A DNA stretch of 64,000 nucleotides. It comes from Bacteroidia bacterium (lineage in GTDB: Bacteria > Bacteroidota > Bacteroidia > Cytophagales > Flammeovirgaceae). Numbering within the stretch: the stretch's first letter is position 1; each line of letters starts with the position of its first letter. The notes under the pieces are model-generated. The model was not told the origin of the DNA, ran no database searches, and was given only the letters and a program-made list of their open reading frames with translations. Of the stretch, positions 21,417 to 59,961 are shown piece by piece. The stretch covers positions 1-64,000 of the forward strand of contig JAUIAB010000002.1 in assembly GCA_030425505.1 (NCBI GenBank), given 5' to 3'. The translations under genes were made by a program, and so were the position numbers.

Positions 21417-24059
21417 ATGCTTAAATTTAAAATTATAGCAATTGCAGCCCTTTATTTTGGTTATGCCTGTTGTAAAGCGCAGAATGTAAACGCTCTAATC
21501 AAAAAACTAGAAAAAAAACAGTTCAAAGAAGTAAAAGAAAAACTTGACAAGTACATATCAAAAGGAAAGAAAGAGCCAGTTATCTTTTACTTTTACAGCA
21601 AATATTTTTTTGATAATAATAACCAGAAAAACAGATCTTTAGACTCGGCTTATGCTAACATTGAAGTTGCTTTTAAAGAACTTCAACTACTTGATAGTAA
21701 TGAGCGGGAGAAATACCAAAAAGCAGAAATAGGCGAGAAAGCATTCGAGGATCTAAAAAGTAAGATTTTATCTGAAGCGTTTTTAAAAGCCAAAGAAGAG
21801 AGCACAGAGCCTTCATTAAACCACTTTATTACTTTTTATAATAGTGATAGCTCCCTTCATAAGCGGGCAATTCAAATGCGCGATAGTATAAGTTATCATT
21901 TATCTCAGCTGGAAAATAGCTATCAGTCCTACCTTACTTTTCTAAGCAAATACCCCGATGCAGCTCAGGCAAAAAACGCAAAATACCTATATGAAAAACT
22001 ACTTTATGAAGCTAAAACCAAATCTAGTGAAATAGATGATTTGGTCTCCTTTATAAATAGCTATCCAGAAAGCCCCTATAGAGTAGATGCAGAAAAAAGG
22101 CTTTATTACAAGTTTACATTTGACAATCAAAAAGAAACCTTTGAGCAATTTGCAGAAAAGTTTCCCGACAATTCAATGTCTTTGAAAGCATGGCTTTGGC
22201 TATGGTTTCTCACCAAAGAGAAAGATAGTTTCTTTAGTAAGTATCCTAAAATGCCTAATAGAGAAATCTTTGTAAATCGATTATCAACGGATACACTTAT
22301 TTTCCTTCCAATTGTAAAAAATAACCTGTTCGGCTTTATAGACCTGGAAGGAAATACAAGAATAAAGCCTTCAATTCAAAACATACCCGCTACTCAAAAG
22401 TGTAAGCCAATTAATGAAGAATACATAATAGCAGAAACAGAAGGTGGGCTGTCAATCTTTACCAAAAAAGGAGAAAAAATAAGTGCCTCAGAGTTTGATA
22501 GAATAAAGGATTTTAGTGAAGCAACGTTTTGCACTAAAAAAGGAAATAAGTTTGGACTATTCCATAAAGGTGGATTTGAGCTAATACCACCGAAATATGA
22601 CTCATTACTTTTTTTATACCAAGGTGTAGTTGCAGCAAAAAGCAATCGAAAGTGGCGTCTAATAACAATGCGTGATTCTGTAATTGTTGATTCGAGTTGT
22701 ACTTCAATAAAACCAATAAAAAAAGATTTGTGGATACTGGAAAGAGATAGCCTAAAAACATTTTTGGATAAAAGAGTATTTAGCATTACTCAAAATGCAG
22801 AAAACTCCTTTGATTTTTTATATGAAGAGCTCTCTTTAAGCCATGAAAACTTTTTTCAAGTACTAAGAAAAAATAAATGGGGAGTTATTAGTAGAAATAG
22901 TAGAGAAATTATTCCTATAGATTATTCTTATATAGAAGAAAGTAGCTATGGTTGGATCGTAGAGAAAGATAGTGTTTATTATGCATATGATTTGAAAGGG
23001 AATTTGGTTTTGCCAGAGCCATTAGAAAATGTTTTAGTTGGAGACAATCATTATGCTATAAAAAAAGAGAGCAAATGGGGCTTAGTTGATTTGAAAGGTG
23101 AAACTATACTCCCTGTAAAATGTGAAGAACTCAACTTTTTAGGGAAAAGCCACATTTTGATTAAAGAAAAGAATAAATACCATATCATTTCATTGCAAAA
23201 CCCAGAAAAGCTAGTATCTATTCACAACTTTTGGCAAGTAGCTTACAGTAAAACTTCTAATCGCGAAGATCCAGCAACATTTATAATTACTAGAAGTAAA
23301 AGAAATAAAAAAGGGTTGATGGATCTTTCTGGCAAAAAGCTTTTACATGATCATTACGATGATCTTCAGCTAGTACAAGATAGCTTGTGTATTTTCAAAA
23401 AGCATAATAAAAAAGGTGTTTTAAAGGTAACTGGAGAAGTTTTGTTACATGCAAAGTACGATGGTATATCAGAAACATCTGGTCAAAGCCTTTCCCTTTA
23501 CTTAAAAAACAAATTTGGACTATTTAATACACAAACTAAAAAAACAATACCTGCTTATTACGCTTTTGTCCCCAAAAAATATGGCAAGAGGGATAGCTTA
23601 TTCATTGCAAAAAAGCAGAAGTTCGGAATTATTGATAGTAGTGATGAGGAACTAATTCCTTTTGTTTATGATGAAATAAAGTACTGGAACGATACCATTG
23701 CTTTGGTTCAAAAAGCAAATAAGTGGCAGTTTTTGCTGCTTAACCAAAAACAGCTATTGCCAGATACTTTTGATCACTATGAACTACTTTTTAAAAATAA
23801 TGATGAAGTCGCGATTAAAACATTTAATGCAAGTGGATATGGCTTAATAAGCAGCAGATTTGGTAGAATAATACCTGAAGAATACAATGAAATTCTTAAC
23901 ATATCAAATACTAACATTCCGATATATTTAGTTCAAAAAACAGATAGGCTCACTCACTCTCATCTAATCTTATATGTTTCCAATAAGGGAAAAGTAATCT
24001 ATAAGCAGTTTCTATCCGATGAAGAGTTTCAAAAATTTTCTTGCTTTAGTAAGCCCTAA
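21417..24059 (+). CDS. Exported WG-repeat protein
   Basis: An 880-residue protein with a signal peptide (LKFKIIAIAALYFGYACCKAQ). The N-terminal third (about 25-280) is helical and TPR-like (SYQSYLTFLSKYPDAAQAKN; DDLVSFINSYPESPYRVDA). From about 295 onward it is built of roughly ten WG/KWG repeats, each around 45-60 residues, for example NKFGLFHKGGFELIPPKYDS, NKWGVISRNSREIIPIDY, SKWGLVDLKGETILPVKCEE, KFGLFNTQTKKTIPAYYAF and KFGIIDSSDEELIPFVYDE. WG repeats fold as a propeller-like or stacked beta structure and are usually taken as interaction modules. Likely periplasmic or surface exposed. It converges on the helicase gene. Confidence 0.85.
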   Translation: MLKFKIIAIAALYFGYACCKAQNVNALIKKLEKKQFKEVKEKLDKYISKGKKEPVIFYFYSKYFFDNNNQKNRSLDSAYANIEVAFKELQLLDSNEREKYQKAEIGEKAFEDLKSKILSEAFLKAKEESTEPSLNHFITFYNSDSSLHKRAIQMRDSISYHLSQLENSYQSYLTFLSKYPDAAQAKNAKYLYEKLLYEAKTKSSEIDDLVSFINSYPESPYRVDAEKRLYYKFTFDNQKETFEQFAEKFPDNSMSLKAWLWLWFLTKEKDSFFSKYPKMPNREIFVNRLSTDTLIFLPIVKNNLFGFIDLEGNTRIKPSIQNIPATQKCKPINEEYIIAETEGGLSIFTKKGEKISASEFDRIKDFSEATFCTKKGNKFGLFHKGGFELIPPKYDSLLFLYQGVVAAKSNRKWRLITMRDSVIVDSSCTSIKPIKKDLWILERDSLKTFLDKRVFSITQNAENSFDFLYEELSLSHENFFQVLRKNKWGVISRNSREIIPIDYSYIEESSYGWIVEKDSVYYAYDLKGNLVLPEPLENVLVGDNHYAIKKESKWGLVDLKGETILPVKCEELNFLGKSHILIKEKNKYHIISLQNPEKLVSIHNFWQVAYSKTSNREDPATFIITRSKRNKKGLMDLSGKKLLHDHYDDLQLVQDSLCIFKKHNKKGVLKVTGEVLLHAKYDGISETSGQSLSLYLKNKFGLFNTQTKKTIPAYYAFVPKKYGKRDSLFIAKKQKFGIIDSSDEELIPFVYDEIKYWNDTIALVQKANKWQFLLLNQKQLLPDTFDHYELLFKNNDEVAIKTFNASGYGLISSRFGRIIPEEYNEILNISNTNIPIYLVQKTDRLTHSHLILYVSNKGKVIYKQFLSDEEFQKFSCFSKP

Positions 24060-28848: not shown

Positions 28849-30510
28849 TTACTCAACAAAACTTTTAGATAAAACTCCGATGATCTCAGGAGTTTGTTCT
28901 CTATTGTTTAATCGTCTTGCCATGTACGTAATATTAGTTTCTAAATAATCTTTCATTTCAAGGAGGGATAGCTTTCGGTTTCTATCTGAGTCTGCTTCTC
29001 CTCTGAGACCTTTAAGAAAATAGTAGGTAAATAGGCTATGGTTTTGCTCTGGATACCAAGATGATACCTGCTCAGAAGAAGCAGAAGTAAATACCATTGC
29101 ATTTTCATCTTTCAATATTTTATTCTCCGTCTTTATGAAAATAGGGGAGATGTTTTTAAGCAACATTCCACCTTCTGATGCTCCACTGAAGCAAGCATCA
29201 ATAACCACAGTTAATTTCCTATAGGGGACATTTCCTAAATTGGTATAAAATGTTTTAAGTGAATATCCATTGTATTGTATTAGAGATGGGTCAGTATCTA
29301 CAGGAACAAAAAAACCTTCATTCGTTTCGGGGTTTGGAGCGCCATGCCCACTGTAATAAATAAACACATCAGACTTTCCTGGCTTTACATAATTAAAAAG
29401 TTGGGCTTTATAATCTTTTTCATTACCAAAAATACTGTTAAACTTAGCTTGGGTTGCGTCTTCCACATAAATGATGTTTCCCTCTCGATAACCCAGCATA
29501 TCTATCAGATATTGCTTCATAATTCTGGAATCATGTATAGCATAGTCAACATCTGGAGTATCGCCATGCTGATAGCTTCTATTACCAATAATTACCGCTA
29601 CTGCATCTTGATTAACTCTATTTGTTTTGGGAATATTTGTATCTACATCGGAGTTAAGTAGGATGGCATTTGTTTTAACATCTTTGTTGTTATCATCATT
29701 AGTATTAATTTGCTCATTTTCAATTTCAGCATATGCTTGATCTGGAGATTGCATCAAATCAACTACATCCGAAGAAATCTTTTTAAAAGCTTGCTTAGAA
29801 AGCAAAGCAATATTAGTAGAAGCCATCTTATTAGACTTAGAGCTAAAATATTCTAATTCTACTCCTTTAGAATCTATTATAGAAATAGAAATATTGACGT
29901 AATTTCCTGTAGGGCTGGTATTAAAATTAGGCTCAAAAATTAGATAATAATTTGCTGGGAACTCTTTTCTTAGCCGATCAAATGTGACTTCAAATTGATC
30001 GGAACAAAGGTTTTTCCTTTTCAAAGATCGTGTTGCAGAAAAGAAGTTTTTAACTCTAATTTCCTTTTCATCAGATAGAGTTTCCGATAAAATATCAACA
30101 GCCTCAGAGTATTTATTACTTCTGCTTAACTCACATAAATTCTCCTCATTAGGAATTCTTGGAACTACCATTACCGTAATTGAGCTATTGATATCATAAT
30201 CATACCTATTGTTTTTATTACGGTTTTTAATCGCATTTACACCTTCTATTATTGGTAGTATAGTTTCTGATAAAAAAACATTTCCTACTTTTCCGATAAC
30301 TCTCAGGTCTCGTATTGTTTTTTCATAATCTGAATGGAATCTGCTTTTGGAGCTACTTGTATTATATGGTACTCTTTGGTTTATGCTGTAATCACTATTA
30401 TATCTAACATTTCTTGATCTATATTGTGAAAAAGCATTAGAGAGATTCAATAAAAATAGAAGAAAAAGGAGAGAGCTAATTAATACTGAGTTTCTTTTAT
30501 ACTTTTTCAT
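28849..30510 (-). CDS. Exported caspase-family (peptidase C14) protein
   Basis: A 553-residue secreted or periplasmic caspase-like protease. Signal peptide about 1-28. The C-terminal p20/p10-like domain starts at VAVIIGNRSYQHGD (304-317). The catalytic dyad is complete: His389 in YYSGHGAP and Cys440 in VIDACFSGAS. Downstream SSWYPEQNHSLFTYYFLKGL is also family-typical. The middle region (about 110-255) reads NYYLIFEPNF, then ISIIDSKGVELEYFS, and resembles the alpha/beta fold of the CsgG-like partner encoded just upstream; that likeness is my inference. It is the second gene of a pair with a 37-base gap. Substrate unknown. Confidence 0.82.
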   Translation of the reverse strand: MKKYKRNSVLISSLLFLLFLLNLSNAFSQYRSRNVRYNSDYSINQRVPYNTSSSKSRFHSDYEKTIRDLRVIGKVGNVFLSETILPIIEGVNAIKNRNKNNRYDYDINSSITVMVVPRIPNEENLCELSRSNKYSEAVDILSETLSDEKEIRVKNFFSATRSLKRKNLCSDQFEVTFDRLRKEFPANYYLIFEPNFNTSPTGNYVNISISIIDSKGVELEYFSSKSNKMASTNIALLSKQAFKKISSDVVDLMQSPDQAYAEIENEQINTNDDNNKDVKTNAILLNSDVDTNIPKTNRVNQDAVAVIIGNRSYQHGDTPDVDYAIHDSRIMKQYLIDMLGYREGNIIYVEDATQAKFNSIFGNEKDYKAQLFNYVKPGKSDVFIYYSGHGAPNPETNEGFFVPVDTDPSLIQYNGYSLKTFYTNLGNVPYRKLTVVIDACFSGASEGGMLLKNISPIFIKTENKILKDENAMVFTSASSEQVSSWYPEQNHSLFTYYFLKGLRGEADSDRNRKLSLLEMKDYLETNITYMARRLNNREQTPEIIGVLSKSFVE

Positions 30511-30547
30511 AATTTATAGAATTAAAGATTTGTAGAGTTTATTTAAA

Positions 30548-31441
30548 TTACTGTTGGCCACTTACAGCATAGATAGCAGCTTGGGAGTCCATTTTTTGCT
30601 TCAAAATATCACTGCCGTTTCTTTGTACCTTACAGGTTGAAAAGTTCTCACCATCCACACTTTTAACTGTTGCCCAGCCAAGAGGAGTTTTTTTCTGTAA
30701 ACTTCTTCCATCTACTTCAACATCAGATAACTCCATTAATCTAAATTTTTGTCCTTCTTTTACTCCTAAATCTTTACCACCTGCAATTGTAATCTCTTTT
30801 ACCCGATCTTTTTTCTCTTCGGTAATTTCAAAAACCTTGAGAACCAGAGGAAAATGAATATCTATAAAACTTAATAAAGGCTCTCTAACCTTTTCTATTC
30901 CTCTAGACTTAGCTTTTTCTTCTGATGCAAATTTTTCACCATATAGAAGAGAGTACCAAGACTTATCCTTGGTGTTACCCATGATTTTGGAAGCTACAAT
31001 TTCTCCCGTTTTAACATCTAATATTTTAAGAGAAAAGCCAATTCTACCAACATAGCCTTCAAACTTCTCTCTACCATTTCTTTCTTTATACCAAGACTCA
31101 TTAGCCTCAATATTTGATAAACTTCCAGTAATTATATATTCAGCACCAAGCTTTTTACCTTGTTCAACTACTAAACCATCAATAAAGCTTTCATTTTTTT
31201 GCAAATTTTCTTCTGAGAAAATAAGGTTGAAATCAGATCTTTCTACAACTTTGAATCGGTTAGAAGAAACTAAAGCATCTACTACAGTCTCTGTAAAATT
31301 AGCAGCGAAACGATGTGTATCTTCATTGCCAGTAGCCTTAAATGGTGCTATTGCAATTACTTTTTTCTTCATATCTGAAGCAAATGCTCCGCATAAAGCA
31401 ATTAAAAGAAGTGCGAAAATTAGAGTTAATTTTTTTTTCAT
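30548..31441 (-). CDS. CsgG/LpoB-like exported protein
   Basis: A 297-residue exported protein from the ATG at 31441, chosen because it opens the signal peptide KKKLTLIFALLLIALCGAFA; an upstream start would add 14 residues before it. The mature start KKKVIAIAPFKATGNEDTHR, then VVDALVSSNRFKVVERSDFN and GKKLGAEYIITGSLS, is the CsgG/FlgT/LpoB pattern, followed by SLKILDVKTGEIVASK. A C-terminal segment (about 220-290) resembles a small beta-barrel (LGVKEGQKFRLMEL). No lipobox Cys is seen, unlike true CsgG. First gene of the pair with the caspase-like protein. Confidence 0.75.
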   Translation of the reverse strand: MKKKLTLIFALLLIALCGAFASDMKKKVIAIAPFKATGNEDTHRFAANFTETVVDALVSSNRFKVVERSDFNLIFSEENLQKNESFIDGLVVEQGKKLGAEYIITGSLSNIEANESWYKERNGREKFEGYVGRIGFSLKILDVKTGEIVASKIMGNTKDKSWYSLLYGEKFASEEKAKSRGIEKVREPLLSFIDIHFPLVLKVFEITEEKKDRVKEITIAGGKDLGVKEGQKFRLMELSDVEVDGRSLQKKTPLGWATVKSVDGENFSTCKVQRNGSDILKQKMDSQAAIYAVSGQQ

Positions 31442-32938: not shown

Positions 32939-34483
32939 TTAATACAAAAGCGTATTTGGGTTCTTGTTCTCAAGTGTTAGCATTTCAAGAATAGACTCAA
33001 CATAATCTCTTGAGTTAGAAAGGCGAGGTACTTTATGCTGCCCGCCTAACTTCCCTTTTGACCTCATCCAGTTGTAAAAAGTACCTTTAGGTACAAAATG
33101 AATCTTTGGTGCGATGAGAGCAATATCTTTATATCTTTTGGCATCATAGTCCGAGTTTATTTTCCTCAACGTGGAGTCTAGCTCTTTGGAGAAAGCATTA
33201 ACACTTTCTGGTTCTTGTTCCATTTCTATAATCCACTCATGACCTCCTTTTTTACCCTGGTCAAGAAAGATAGGGGCTACAGTAAAATCTCTGACTCTAG
33301 CATTAGTTACCTGTGAGGCTTTTGTAATAGCATGCTCTGCATTTTCAACGATTACTTCTTCTCCAAAAGCGTTGATAAAATGTTTCGTTCTGCCAGATAT
33401 TTTTATCCGAAAAGGGTGTTTAGAAGTGAATTTGATTGTATCACCTAACTTATATCTCCACAAACCAGCATTGGTAGAGATAATGATAGCATAATTCTTC
33501 CCCAACTCAACTTCATCTAAAGTATAGGATTTGGGATGCTCATTATTGATTTCTTCTGTTGGTATAAACTCATAAAAAATGCCATAATCCAGAAGTAGAA
33601 GCATTTCGTCAGGCTCATTGGTATCTTGAATACCAAAAAAGCCCTCAGAAGCATTATAGATCTCTATATACTTCATATCAGGATTGGGAATCAGTTTTTT
33701 GAAAACTTCTCTGTATGGTCCAAAAGCAACTGCACCGTGGGCAAAAAACTCTAAATTAGGCCAAACTTCATGGAGGGATTCTTTTCCGGTAAGTTTTAAA
33801 ACCTTTTCTAGGAGTACTAACATCCAGGTTGGAACACCACAAATATTAGTAACATTTTGATTTAAAGTAGCTGTAGCAATCTTCTCAATCTTCTCTTCCC
33901 ATTCTTCCATTAAGGCAATATCTAGATCTGGAGTTCTATGATACTGAGCCCAAAAAGGAAGATATTTCATAATAATTGCAGACACGTCCCCATATGTTGT
34001 TTGCGCATTCAAATGATTTTCTTGTGAACTTCCCCCAACTGCTAAAGATTTTCCTAAAAAGAAATTAGTTTCAGGATTTTGGCTTAAATAAATGGCGATA
34101 AGATCTTTTCCCGCTTTATAATGGGAATCCTCCAAAGACTCTTTTGTAATAGGAATGAACTTACTTCTAGCATTAGTAGTACCTGAAGACTTAGCAAAAG
34201 CAAAAGCCTTAGAAGGCCAAAGCAAATTACTTTCCCCTTTCATTACCCTTTCAATGAAGGGAAATATATCCTCGTAGGATGATATGGGTACTCTACTCTT
34301 AAAAGAATGATAGGACTTAATATCGGAATAACTATACTTCTTACCCCACTCTGTATTTTTGGCAGTATTTATCAGATTAGAAAAAACCTTATTTTGAACT
34401 TCAATAGGGTTTTTTCTGTAATTCTCAACCTGACTGACTCTTTTTTTCATCAGCCACTTAAATACTGCATTTACAGGCTTCAT
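32939..34483 (-). CDS. GH3 auxin-responsive-promoter family protein (acyl-adenylating)
   Basis: A 514-residue member of the GH3 family in the ANL adenylating-enzyme superfamily. Plant members join amino acids to hormone carboxylates; bacterial substrates are unknown. Seen: AFAKSSGTTNARSKFIPIT (about 92-110, ATP/AMP-binding motif A), VGGSSQENHL, the central YIEIYNASEGFFGIQD (motif B), and NAGLWRYKLGDTIKFTS (motif C). KISGRTKHFINAFGEEV follows, with the C-terminal lid ending near KLGGQHKVPRLSN. Full family length. It follows lptB on the same strand by 65 bases, an arrangement that suggests an envelope-related role, but that is inference. Confidence 0.88.
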   Translation of the reverse strand: MKPVNAVFKWLMKKRVSQVENYRKNPIEVQNKVFSNLINTAKNTEWGKKYSYSDIKSYHSFKSRVPISSYEDIFPFIERVMKGESNLLWPSKAFAFAKSSGTTNARSKFIPITKESLEDSHYKAGKDLIAIYLSQNPETNFFLGKSLAVGGSSQENHLNAQTTYGDVSAIIMKYLPFWAQYHRTPDLDIALMEEWEEKIEKIATATLNQNVTNICGVPTWMLVLLEKVLKLTGKESLHEVWPNLEFFAHGAVAFGPYREVFKKLIPNPDMKYIEIYNASEGFFGIQDTNEPDEMLLLLDYGIFYEFIPTEEINNEHPKSYTLDEVELGKNYAIIISTNAGLWRYKLGDTIKFTSKHPFRIKISGRTKHFINAFGEEVIVENAEHAITKASQVTNARVRDFTVAPIFLDQGKKGGHEWIIEMEQEPESVNAFSKELDSTLRKINSDYDAKRYKDIALIAPKIHFVPKGTFYNWMRSKGKLGGQHKVPRLSNSRDYVESILEMLTLENKNPNTLLY

Positions 34484-55372: not shown

Positions 55373-57496
55373 TTAATGAACAATAACTTTCTGTGTTATT
55401 TGTTCATTATTAGAATTCAATGATAGGATATAGGTTCCTTTAGGTAGATGTCTTGTTGCTAGGTATAGTTGATCATTTTGACTTATTATTTCAGAGCTCA
55501 CTCGGTTACCCAAAGAATTATAGATCACTATTTCTCTATCTAGGATATCTCTCATCATAATTTTGACATTTGCACCTTGAGGTATTGGGTTAGCTACAAT
55601 AACCGGTTTTATTAGGTTACTTGTAAAGTTTAAAATAGTTTGTATTTCAGAATAGGAATAGGTTCCATCAAAATCTGTTTGCTTAAGGCGATAGTAGGAA
55701 GTTCCTAAATAAGGTGTATAATCATAGTCTTTATAGGATAAGATTTGATTGCTATTTCCTGACCCCTTAATCGTTTTAAACTCTTCCCAAGAAACTGCAT
55801 CCACAGATCTTTCAAGGGTGAAATAATCATTATTTATTTCAGATGCTGTTTCCCACGAAAGTTTCACTAAATCACCATCGAGCTTAGCATCAAATGATAT
55901 TAAGTCAATTGGAAGGACATTATTTGCTGTTGTTGAGCCTAAAGTAAAAGGGCTAAAAGAGGTGATAACTTCAGAAGTAATCGTACCAGAATTGGCACCT
56001 CCAGTTGTACCAGTATTACCATGATCTTTCCACTGGCTTCCATCCCATCTTGCCACAATTAATTCAGCAGGTACACCAACTGCACTACTTCCATCCCAGC
56101 TCAAAGAGACAGAAACATTGGAAGAGCCTTTATCTCTGCTGAGTTCCCAATACTCTAATACACTAATGTTATTTATTGTTCCATCTTTTGAAGTTGCGTC
56201 ATAGCTTTTATCTGGATCATCAGCTATATAAGTAGCGGTAAACTCATCATCATCTAGTGAGGGGGCTGATATTGATATTGGTCTATATTTTCCATTTGCA
56301 CCTACGGGAAAGGTAAATGCATCGTTGCCTACTTTTTTAACAAAACCATCTATATAGGAATCATTACTAACATTGGATACTGTAGCACCATCATTTATTA
56401 CTAAATTACTACCGCTGGTATTGACTATACCATCAATAAGTTCTAACTCATTTGTGACAGTTACGTCATCATTAAAATAAACTATTCCTGCTGACTTATT
56501 AACTGTGAAATGGTAAACTTCTTGGAAATCACTAGTAAAATCTTGATCTGAGTTGCCTCCTAATACAAGCTCTCCTCCATTAGGATCAAATGTTCCATTG
56601 GTAAAGTCAACGTCACCTCTCACTTCAAGGTAGTGTGGATTTCCACCTGCTGATTCGCCTATTAGCTCTGCTGTCCCACTTATTATGCTAAAATCTCCTT
56701 TTACAATTATGTTTCCTCCATCTTCACTTTGCAGTTTAACAGTTCTAGCTACATTAGCACTAATGATTAGATTATATACTTCAGCAGTTTTATTGGATGC
56801 AGATTCAAAAGTTACACTGCTTCCCCCTGTTCCTTCTGTTGTTAAAATTATGGTTCCTCCAGTGATGGAACATGAGGTATTACTAACTTCAAAGTTATTT
56901 CCAACGGTAAGAGTATAATTCCCACTAAAATCCCCCGAAAAAGTATTATCATCATCAAACCTACAAGTTTCAGTAACATCAATATCTCCACCAGTTATTG
57001 TAACATTGCCATCGGCAGTTCCATTATCTTCCCCAGCCCAGTCATCGTAAATTTTAAGCATGCCACTCGATATATTTATTGAGCAGTCTTCAGCAGTTCT
57101 AAAGTCATCTGTAACTTCCATTATCCCCCCAGTTATATTAAGAGTTCCATTAGCTTGGATTATAACACCTCCAACTAATTGTTTGATTGCAATATCTCCT
57201 CCATCAGCAATAGTTAATATTCCATTTGCTGTTACAGTTAAGCCTCTACACTCATTACCAGCTTCATCAATTACCAAGTTATTCGCACCATTACCAATAA
57301 TAACTGAATCTACATCTGTAGGCACTAAATTGGTATCCCAGTTTGCAGCAGTATTCCAGTCTGAACTTTCACTTCCGTCCCATGTGATAGTAGCTTGAGC
57401 AATAGAAGATGAACAAATCCCAAAAAGGAAGAGGTTAGTTGAGAAGGTTATGAGTAGGAGTCTTTTTATCATTCCTAAGTTTTTTTTTGTTTTCAT
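55373..57496 (-). CDS. T9SS-exported cargo protein A (beta-helix adhesin-like)
   Basis: A 707-residue secreted protein. Signal peptide at about 8-33 (LLLITFSTNLFLFGICSSSIAQA). The N-terminal domain (WDGSESSDWNTAANWDTNLV) and following repeats rich in G, T and N (GGIMEVTDDFRT; GGDIDVTETCRFD) suggest a right-handed beta-helix. A conserved module follows (APSLDDDEFTATYIADDPDK), then a fibronectin-III-like WETASEINNDYFTLERSVD. The end is a type A sorting domain: NSLGNRVSSEI, HLPKGTYILSL, QKVIVH. T9SS machinery is outside the window. It is a close paralogue of the next gene. Confidence 0.85.
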   Translation of the reverse strand: MKTKKNLGMIKRLLLITFSTNLFLFGICSSSIAQATITWDGSESSDWNTAANWDTNLVPTDVDSVIIGNGANNLVIDEAGNECRGLTVTANGILTIADGGDIAIKQLVGGVIIQANGTLNITGGIMEVTDDFRTAEDCSINISSGMLKIYDDWAGEDNGTADGNVTITGGDIDVTETCRFDDDNTFSGDFSGNYTLTVGNNFEVSNTSCSITGGTIILTTEGTGGSSVTFESASNKTAEVYNLIISANVARTVKLQSEDGGNIIVKGDFSIISGTAELIGESAGGNPHYLEVRGDVDFTNGTFDPNGGELVLGGNSDQDFTSDFQEVYHFTVNKSAGIVYFNDDVTVTNELELIDGIVNTSGSNLVINDGATVSNVSNDSYIDGFVKKVGNDAFTFPVGANGKYRPISISAPSLDDDEFTATYIADDPDKSYDATSKDGTINNISVLEYWELSRDKGSSNVSVSLSWDGSSAVGVPAELIVARWDGSQWKDHGNTGTTGGANSGTITSEVITSFSPFTLGSTTANNVLPIDLISFDAKLDGDLVKLSWETASEINNDYFTLERSVDAVSWEEFKTIKGSGNSNQILSYKDYDYTPYLGTSYYRLKQTDFDGTYSYSEIQTILNFTSNLIKPVIVANPIPQGANVKIMMRDILDREIVIYNSLGNRVSSEIISQNDQLYLATRHLPKGTYILSLNSNNEQITQKVIVH

Positions 57497-57792: not shown

Positions 57793-59961
57793 TTAAGTAG
57801 AGCTACTTACTATAAACTTTTTAAATTTTTCATTGCCCTTGCTATCAATAACAACCAAATAATACAAACCATTTTGGAGGTGATTTGTTGAAATTTCTAA
57901 GTCTATATTATTTTTTACTATTTCTGCATCAAATGAATTTCCTGAGGAGTTTATTATTCTAATGTTTTTGATATCATCTACGTATTCTGATTTAATTATC
58001 AGTTTTTCAACTCCTGGATTAGGGTAAATAGTTATTTCAAAATTTAAGATATTACTATTCTGTAGTTGTATAGTCTCGATGTGAGAATAGGAGTAAGTAC
58101 CATCAAAATCTGTTTGTTTTAATCTATAGTATATAATTCCCTGATGAGAGAAGCAGTCTGTTTCTCTATATGTTAAGGCTTGGTTACTGTTCCCTGCTCC
58201 TTTTATTTTTTTGACACTTTCCCATTTTTTAGCATCAATAGACCTTTCAATTGTAAAAAAATCATTATTTACCTCTGATGCAGTTTGCCAGGATAAGGTT
58301 ATTTCATTTTTTATATAATTTTCAGCTTTGAAATAGACCAGCTCAACAGGCAATGGATTATTAGGAGTAGTAGAACCTAGTGTAAAAGGACTAAATGATG
58401 TTATAATTTGTGAAGTTATTGTGCCAGACTCAGTATTACCTGTAGTACTTGCATTTCCATGATCTTTCCATTGGCTTCCATCCCACCTAGCTACAACCAA
58501 ATCATCTAAATCACCTACACCACTATTTTCATTCCAGCTCAGCGTAACAGAAACATTAGAAGATCCCTTTTCTCTATTTAACTCCCAGTATTCAAGAATG
58601 CTTAAGTTAGTAATAGTCTCATCTTTTGAAGCAATACTATAGCTTTTATCAGGGTCATCAGCAATATATGTTGCAGTAAATTCATCATCAGCCAATGAAG
58701 GAGCAGTCATTGATATCGGTCTATAATTTCCGTTAGCTCCAGTGGGAAAAACAAAAGCTTCATTACCAACTTTTCTCACAAAACCTTCAACATAAGAGCT
58801 ATTGCTAGTTCCTGAAATAGTGGCATCGTCCTGAATTGCTAAAGTATTCCCATCTGTATTGATTATGCCACTTGTGAGTGTTAACTCATTGAATATAGAT
58901 AGCTCATCATTAAGGTATATAGTGCCACCACTTTTATTTATTGTCAGGTCATACATTTCCTGAAAGTCACTGGTAATTTCTTGATCGTTGCTTCCAGTTA
59001 ATCTTAAATCACCTTCGTTGTTATTAAAAATACCATCAGTAAAATTAATATCTCCTCTTACTTCAATGTATTGCCCAAAAACTGCAAAAGGACTGACTAA
59101 AGTTCCTTTTGATACTGTTAAATCTCCTTTAATTAGCAAATGAGTCCCAGTAGCTAATGCATTAATCTCACCTTCAAAGGTTTCTGTTTCAACTGTTAGG
59201 TTATATAATTCTACTCCATCACTAAAACCAGGTGAATCTATTACGCCACTCTCACTCTCAAAACCAGTCATAACCACTGTACCTCCGGTTACACTACATG
59301 AATTACTGTATATTTCCAAATTTTGACCTATGGTTAATATATAGTCACCACTTAAGTCGCCACTAAAATTATCTTCGCTAAACCGACAGTCTTCGCCTAC
59401 ATTAATAATACCACCAGTAATTGTAATATTTCCTTTAGCATCACTAGTCCCATTATCAGCAACCCAATCATCACCGATATTTAAAACTCCTCCAGAAATA
59501 TTCACATTAGAACCCAGGGCAGTTTTAAAGTCGTCGCTCATTGTTATCTCCCCTCCGTCTTCTAAATTTAAAACCCCTTGATTAAGTACAGTTACTGCAC
59601 TTGTATGATCATTTATGGTTAATTTTCCTCCAGCAGCTACAGTTAAAGTAGCATTTGCCTGAACAATCAAATTAGCACAGTCAACTTCAGCACTTAAAAT
59701 TAACTCTGGTGTTCCTATGGCTATGTAAACAGTATCATTTATTGTTGGTACAGAGTTAGTTGACCAATTGCTTGCTACATTCCAGTTTGAGCTAGAGCTT
59801 CCATCCCATAAAACATTACCTTGACCATATACATTTAGAGTAACACATGTAAGGAAAAGTAATAAAACCAAGTTACTTAAGAACGGAGGAGAAAACCTTT
59901 TTTTTTGTTCTCTTCCCCACTCGTAAGGGATCTTTTGTGATATATGGCATCGTTTTTTCAT
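57793..59961 (-). CDS. T9SS-exported cargo protein B, paralogue of A
   Basis: A 722-residue secreted protein with a signal peptide preceded by a long basic extension (KKRCHISQKIPYEWGREQKK); the hydrophobic core is LVLLLFLTCVTLNVYG. The same architecture as protein A follows: WDGSSSSNWNVASNWSTNSV, the G/T/N-rich beta-helix (GGIINVGEDCRFSED), APSLADDEFTATYIADDPDK, WQTASEVNNDFFTIERSID, and the sorting domain ending TIYPNPGVEKLIIKSE, NHLQNGLYYLVVID, KFKKFIVS. It is tandem with A in the same direction, evidence for a duplication. Surface adhesin or glycan-binding role is likely, not proven. Confidence 0.85.
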   Translation of the reverse strand: MKKRCHISQKIPYEWGREQKKRFSPPFLSNLVLLLFLTCVTLNVYGQGNVLWDGSSSSNWNVASNWSTNSVPTINDTVYIAIGTPELILSAEVDCANLIVQANATLTVAAGGKLTINDHTSAVTVLNQGVLNLEDGGEITMSDDFKTALGSNVNISGGVLNIGDDWVADNGTSDAKGNITITGGIINVGEDCRFSEDNFSGDLSGDYILTIGQNLEIYSNSCSVTGGTVVMTGFESESGVIDSPGFSDGVELYNLTVETETFEGEINALATGTHLLIKGDLTVSKGTLVSPFAVFGQYIEVRGDINFTDGIFNNNEGDLRLTGSNDQEITSDFQEMYDLTINKSGGTIYLNDELSIFNELTLTSGIINTDGNTLAIQDDATISGTSNSSYVEGFVRKVGNEAFVFPTGANGNYRPISMTAPSLADDEFTATYIADDPDKSYSIASKDETITNLSILEYWELNREKGSSNVSVTLSWNENSGVGDLDDLVVARWDGSQWKDHGNASTTGNTESGTITSQIITSFSPFTLGSTTPNNPLPVELVYFKAENYIKNEITLSWQTASEVNNDFFTIERSIDAKKWESVKKIKGAGNSNQALTYRETDCFSHQGIIYYRLKQTDFDGTYSYSHIETIQLQNSNILNFEITIYPNPGVEKLIIKSEYVDDIKNIRIINSSGNSFDAEIVKNNIDLEISTNHLQNGLYYLVVIDSKGNEKFKKFIVSSST

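Follow-up and report, generated by a model that had tools for sequence, protein, structure and literature searches.

A predicted exported caspase with a DUF6175-related, CsgG/LpoB-type N-domain, encoded beside a CsgG-like gene in Flammeovirgaceae

Little work, to our knowledge, has tested what bacterial caspases do apart from cell death, and even less has addressed the exported ones. Every characterised member of family C14 except the metazoan caspases prefers Arg or Lys (PMC5756287), and the substrate-pocket aspartates of the metacaspase TbMC2 are given as Asp95 and Asp211 in PMC6426788. Extracellular bacterial caspases were already predicted and discussed in a survey from 2012 (PMC3501461). 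Neither a CsgG-fold N-domain nor a CsgG neighbour is mentioned in the accessible parts of these two caspase surveys (PMC3501461, PMC6426788).

The locus studied here lies in a window of 64,000 nucleotides from a 2.95-Mb assembly (95.7% complete) of a family that includes Flammeovirga and Flexithrix. On its minus strand, 37 bp separate the stop codon of P0002, which is CsgG-like, from the start of P0001, a caspase-family gene (Table 1). No terminator-like site was found between the two; such sites are at chance level in the region. The start of P0002 was taken as the ATG at 31441, although translation could also begin at an in-frame ATG further upstream (31483), because the signal sequence then falls at the N-terminus. 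The first-pass annotation had described two such minus-strand genes 37 bases apart, one CsgG/LpoB-like and one of the caspase family, and the ORFs and Pfam matches confirmed this description. It had also credited the protease with a complete His389/Cys440 dyad, which is intact and conserved among 71 aligned sequences, and with a signal peptide, which agrees with a hydrophobic N-terminus. Signal sequences throughout were called by eye together with a crude hydrophobicity score. The window further encodes a complete protein of the GH3 family (plant auxin-conjugase-like) in this bacterial host (32939-34483, minus strand) and an 880-aa WG-repeat protein with a signal-like N-terminus (21417-24059, plus strand).

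Table 1 Features of the gene pair in window coordinates.
Feature	Position	Strand	Basis
P0001, predicted exported caspase-family protein, 553 aa	28849..30510	-	ORF; Peptidase_C14 E 8.6e-17
Probable Sec signal sequence, P0001 residues 1-29	30424..30510	-	Hydrophobic window mean 2.96, by eye
N-domain, P0001 residues ~110-265, DUF6175-related, predicted CsgG/LpoB-type topology	29716..30183	-	Model, DUF6175 in orthologues, profile match
Caspase (C14) catalytic domain, P0001 residues ~300-553	28852..29613	-	Pfam; VIA Z 20-23
Asp327 codon, counterpart of TbMC2 Asp95, acidic P1 pocket	29530..29532	-	71/71 aligned sequences
Catalytic His389 codon	29344..29346	-	71/71 aligned sequences
Asp438 codon, counterpart of TbMC2 Asp211, acidic P1 pocket	29197..29199	-	71/71 aligned sequences
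Catalytic Cys440 codon	29191..29193	-	68/71; Ser in three Flammeovirga rows
P0002 (first of the two genes), 297-aa predicted exported protein of the CsgG/LpoB/FlgT superfamily	30548..31441	-	Pfam, Foldseek
CsgG/LpoB/TolB-N-type domain, P0002 residues ~26-198	30848..31366	-	Pfam, Foldseek; model mean pLDDT 56
C-terminal beta domain, FlgT-like, P0002 residues ~200-297	30551..30844	-	FlgT rows cover 21-297; weak model

The Peptidase_C14 match of P0001 spans residues 303-548 and scores 62 bits against a cut-off of 21.4. In the predicted model, which was built from 23 sequences with a mean pLDDT of 77, the caspase domain resembles solved structures of metacaspases, MALT1 and metazoan caspases with VIA Z values of 20-23; plant metacaspase 4 is matched at Z 22.9 over 213 residues (2.3 A). 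Since Asp327 and Asp438 are invariant and stand in the sequence at the spacings of TbMC2 Asp95 and Asp211, a basic P1 specificity, for Arg or Lys, is expected for P0001. We infer catalysis itself from the intact dyad together with this acidic pocket.

The N-domain of P0001 was examined through its orthologues, in which it directly follows the signal-like segment; P0001 has about 80 extra residues before it. Pfam DUF6175 (PF19672) matched 8 of the 11 N-domains tested, and whole-genome searches placed above-cut-off matches within the caspase orthologues of five Flammeovirga genomes and of G001, G003 (9.5e-17) and G006. Because the N-domain of P0001 has no Pfam DUF6175 match of its own, we call it DUF6175-related; P0001 and the G003 orthologue are 55% identical over 446 aa, N-domain included. 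An N-domain profile also retrieved stand-alone DUF6175 proteins adjoining CsgG genes, with E down to 6e-26. The predicted order of elements is b-a-b-a-a-b-b-b-a at a pLDDT of mostly ~90 (strand 111-117, helix 132-146, strand 151-154, helices 156-183, strands 188-199, 202-213 and 218-225, helix 234-254). The model of P0002, folded as a single sequence with a mean pLDDT of 56, has a matching order (strand 28-31, helix 40-59, strand 64-68, helices 77-97, strands 102-119, 125-142 and 148-157, helix 174-196).

Profile comparison pointed to the same relationship. After removal of the signal peptides, the profile combining the N-domain and DUF6175 matched the CsgG-like profile with a score of 43.8 (E 8.6e-6), against a maximum of 16.4 in 100 column shuffles and 12.8 for the reversed profile. 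Occupied columns were shuffled for this control, a full-width column shuffle having given one outlier of 136.5. The first wide comparison had contained signal peptides and was repeated without them, and control profiles of caspase domains and of the small lipoprotein family described below matched nothing. Early comparisons with few sequences were weak (E 0.084 and E 0.0046) and became convincing only with the wider set. Window-type N-domains alone matched the CsgG-like profile weakly (E 5e-4), so that the connection to CsgG depends in part on DUF6175 as an intermediate. BLASTP of the P0001 N-domain against P0002 gave no match, and the VIA and Foldseek results for the full-length P0001 model listed caspases only. 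The N-domain is related to DUF6175 by homology and, as judged from profile comparison and predicted strand order, to the CsgG/LpoB fold. The earlier guess that the middle region of the protease is CsgG-like thus gained a CsgG-type order of secondary structure and a significant profile match. This tie to DUF6175 and the CsgG/LpoB fold is new here; in our literature search DUF6175 went unmentioned, and CsgG combined with caspase led to no relevant paper.

Stand-alone DUF6175 proteins of Bacteroidota are encoded in an operon consisting of one or more CsgG-like genes, a gene for a ~155-aa, mostly lipoprotein-like protein, the DUF6175 gene and a gene for a ~310-aa protein, all on one strand and all with exported-like products. 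The four-gene loci are L191, L192, L193, L195, L198 and L201; L196 is permuted and L197 ends at a contig end. Within the sampled part of Bacteroidota, nine genomes that belong to the order but not to the window's family had a match to A2-type CsgG, and in five of them a DUF6175-type gene lay in the same cluster; from the DUF6175 side, 3 of 8 strong loci of the phylum sample had a recognisable CsgG-like gene and all 8 had the fourth gene. What is conserved is the pairing of a CsgG-like protein with DUF6175, and it is to this domain that the caspase is fused. G001 has both forms, a two-gene CsgG and stand-alone DUF6175 locus (L199, E 4.3e-30) and CsgG with a DUF6175-caspase (L047). The second (small lipoprotein) and fourth genes are absent from the window pair, which looks like a reduced form of the conserved exported operon in which DUF6175 has become joined to a caspase. 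The DUF6175-type fusions formed one side of one branch (1 change against a shuffled mean of 18.5) when 98 caspase domains were placed in a tree, and the support of the branch uniting them was weak (14). The simplest reading is that the fusion probably arose once, in the ancestor of the family. Two further observations were made on these proteins. The fourth protein of the operon matched CsgG-like proteins weakly with signal peptides and more weakly without them. In another group of the phylum (L177-L186), a DUF6175-type domain occurs in ~430-aa proteins that adjoin a second exported gene, with no CsgG match nearby.

The adjacency of caspase and CsgG was examined in 18 genomes of the family, which hold 14 CsgG loci and 2-17 caspase genes each. 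A caspase adjoins CsgG at three of these loci: the window, G001 (CsgG, 85 bp, caspase) and G004/Flexithrix (caspase, 57 bp, CsgG), where the caspase has a different N-domain. On the assumption of one gene per kb, ~0.04 adjacencies would be expected by chance against the 3 observed, or ~0.035 against 2 with the window left out. The adjacency is above chance yet patchy. Both genes are present and unlinked in G003 and G006, and nine Flammeovirga genomes that keep the caspase have no CsgG match, with an LpoB-type gene present elsewhere in them. The partnership is therefore not obligatory, or it can work in trans. Conserved adjacency, which the first-pass annotation had proposed as a check, thus recurred in G001 and Flexithrix and failed at the remaining loci, and its idea of a two-gene caspase-CsgG system gives way to the CsgG-DUF6175 pairing.

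We propose as the likeliest explanation, though tentatively and with slightly more doubt than belief, that the window pair is a reduced, caspase-armed version of the Bacteroidota envelope operon. Both products would be exported to the periplasm, where the CsgG/FlgT-like P0002 may build or become part of an assembly in the envelope. The protease would dock there through its DUF6175-related N-domain, which has the same predicted fold, as the stand-alone DUF6175 protein is presumed to do in other genomes, and a flexible linker would tie this domain to the C14 cysteine protease domain. Once the assembly is triggered, the protease domain would cut exported proteins after Arg or Lys. The direct basis of this proposal is the gene pair, the signal-like N-termini, the domain homology, the intact dyad and pocket, the CsgG-DUF6175 operon and the one-branch fusion; from these we infer a periplasmic location, docking, cleavage, trigger and substrates. 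A broader and more doubtful suggestion is that Bacteroidota have an as yet undescribed envelope complex of several CsgG-fold subunits, one of which would in Flammeovirgaceae be a caspase-like protease, providing a regulated periplasmic output that cleaves at Arg or Lys. It is also conceivable, if rather unlikely, that the protease works alone in the envelope and that the CsgG-like gene beside it was left over from an older operon and has no functional tie to it. The retention of the fusion in Flammeovirga without CsgG fits such independence, as does the retention of adjacency in just one of three relatives with both full-length genes, whereas its recurrence in Flexithrix, where both the CsgG and the gene order differ, and the wide spread of CsgG-DUF6175 linkage, argue for a functional tie.

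A periplasmic location for P0001 and P0002 is suggested by their N-termini. The N-domain of the caspase has two invariant cysteines, 126 and 169, which would fit an oxidising compartment. P0001 has no Pfam match to a T9SS sorting domain; T9SS C-terminal sorting domains are found in two large proteins encoded side by side elsewhere in the window (55376-57496 and 57796-59961, minus strand). The export of the caspase had been regarded as unusual, a view that does not hold: by the crude measure, 63 of 68 complete ORFs of its subfamily have a hydrophobic N-terminus, compared to 314 of 578 background ORFs, and export was already predicted in the 2012 survey (PMC3501461). Members of this subfamily, which share ~50-69% identity across the domain, are found in Deltaproteobacteria, Cloacimonadota, Neomarinimicrobiota and Nitrospirae, among others, often with CARDB, TPR or WD40 as N-terminal modules. 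Its commonest neighbours elsewhere (L067-L146, many phyla) are DUF4384 (11/47) and FGE-sulfatase-like proteins (7/47); CsgG was rejected as the general partner of the subfamily, as it accounts for just 1 of the 47 neighbour proteins. One Flammeovirga caspase copy (L055, L056, L060, L065) immediately precedes a ~130-aa gene and the gene of a ~985-aa protein, SecDF-like by eye.

The protein could instead be exported to carry out programmed cell death or fratricide: on a stress or phage trigger it would degrade envelope proteins and lyse the cell or its neighbour. Caspase homology and a weak PADLOC caspase match are in keeping with this role, which was suggested for exported bacterial caspases in the 2012 survey (PMC3501461). 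We consider it improbable, since the ORF list and Pfam matches of the window reveal no toxin, immunity or defence gene beside the pair, P0001 falls well below the cut-off of the EACC1-type caspase model NF047832 (65.5 against 140 bits), and close relatives occur in 17/17 same-family genomes searched, unlike patchy defence islands. More improbable still is that the caspase domain serves mainly as a scaffold or sensor. In its favour is a Flammeovirga paralogue lineage (L055:6427-7857, L056:6123-7553, L077:7932-9362) in which Ser replaces the catalytic Cys (DVSFSG), making it a candidate pseudo-caspase alongside paralogues that keep the dyad, but the dyad and both pocket aspartates are intact in P0001 and nearly all relatives.

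P0002 matches Pfam CsgG (E 8.7e-11, 42 bits against a cut-off of 20.8) and, above cut-off, LpoB (E 3.7e-8); other CsgG proteins in Flammeovirgaceae score 137-138 bits. In Foldseek searches its model matched FlgT best (3w1e, E 5e-13), followed by PelC, TolB, CsgG and LpoB, and the comparison with FlgT gave a Z of 13.0 with a large rmsd, the model being weak. FlgT, PelC, TolB, CsgG and LpoB are located in periplasmic rings or serve envelope machines. Judged by eye, P0002 has no lipobox, as Leu precedes Cys17, and a site between AFA and S fits signal peptidase I. Since the lipobox is absent and the 95.7% complete genome has no match to CsgE or CsgF, P0002 is unlikely to be a curli channel. That it is a curli-like outer-membrane pore secreting the caspase or another substrate, as its above-cut-off CsgG match might suggest, is accordingly the least probable reading, the other superfamily members matching it equally well or better.

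The pair supplies a concrete candidate partner and a candidate docking domain for an exported bacterial caspase, and it connects the CsgG/LpoB/FlgT fold with DUF6175 and with a conserved operon. Both DUF6175 and the operon can thereby be approached by experiment in Bacteroidota that grow in culture, Flammeovirga and Flexithrix among them.

Among known systems, P0001 shares the p20 fold, the His-Cys dyad and two acidic pocket residues with the orthocaspases, the bacterial metacaspases of family C14, for which an exported form was likewise predicted earlier; the Geobacter caspase structure GSU0716 (3bij) has the bacterial C14 fold in common with it (VIA Z 20.1). What P0001 adds to the orthocaspases is the DUF6175-related N-domain of predicted CsgG fold and the CsgG-like neighbour gene. 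Both proteins of the pair can be related to the CsgG/LpoB/FlgT/PelC/TolB-N superfamily, P0002 by sequence and fold and the caspase N-domain by profile and topology. P0002 differs from CsgG of the curli system in lacking the lipobox and the curli partners, and FlgT is its closest solved chain, yet the window locus is not flagellar. The DUF6175 (PF19672) operon proteins, which adjoin A2-type CsgG genes, appear homologous to the P0001 N-domain, but in the window pair this domain is fused to a protease, and the small lipoprotein and fourth gene of the operon are missing.
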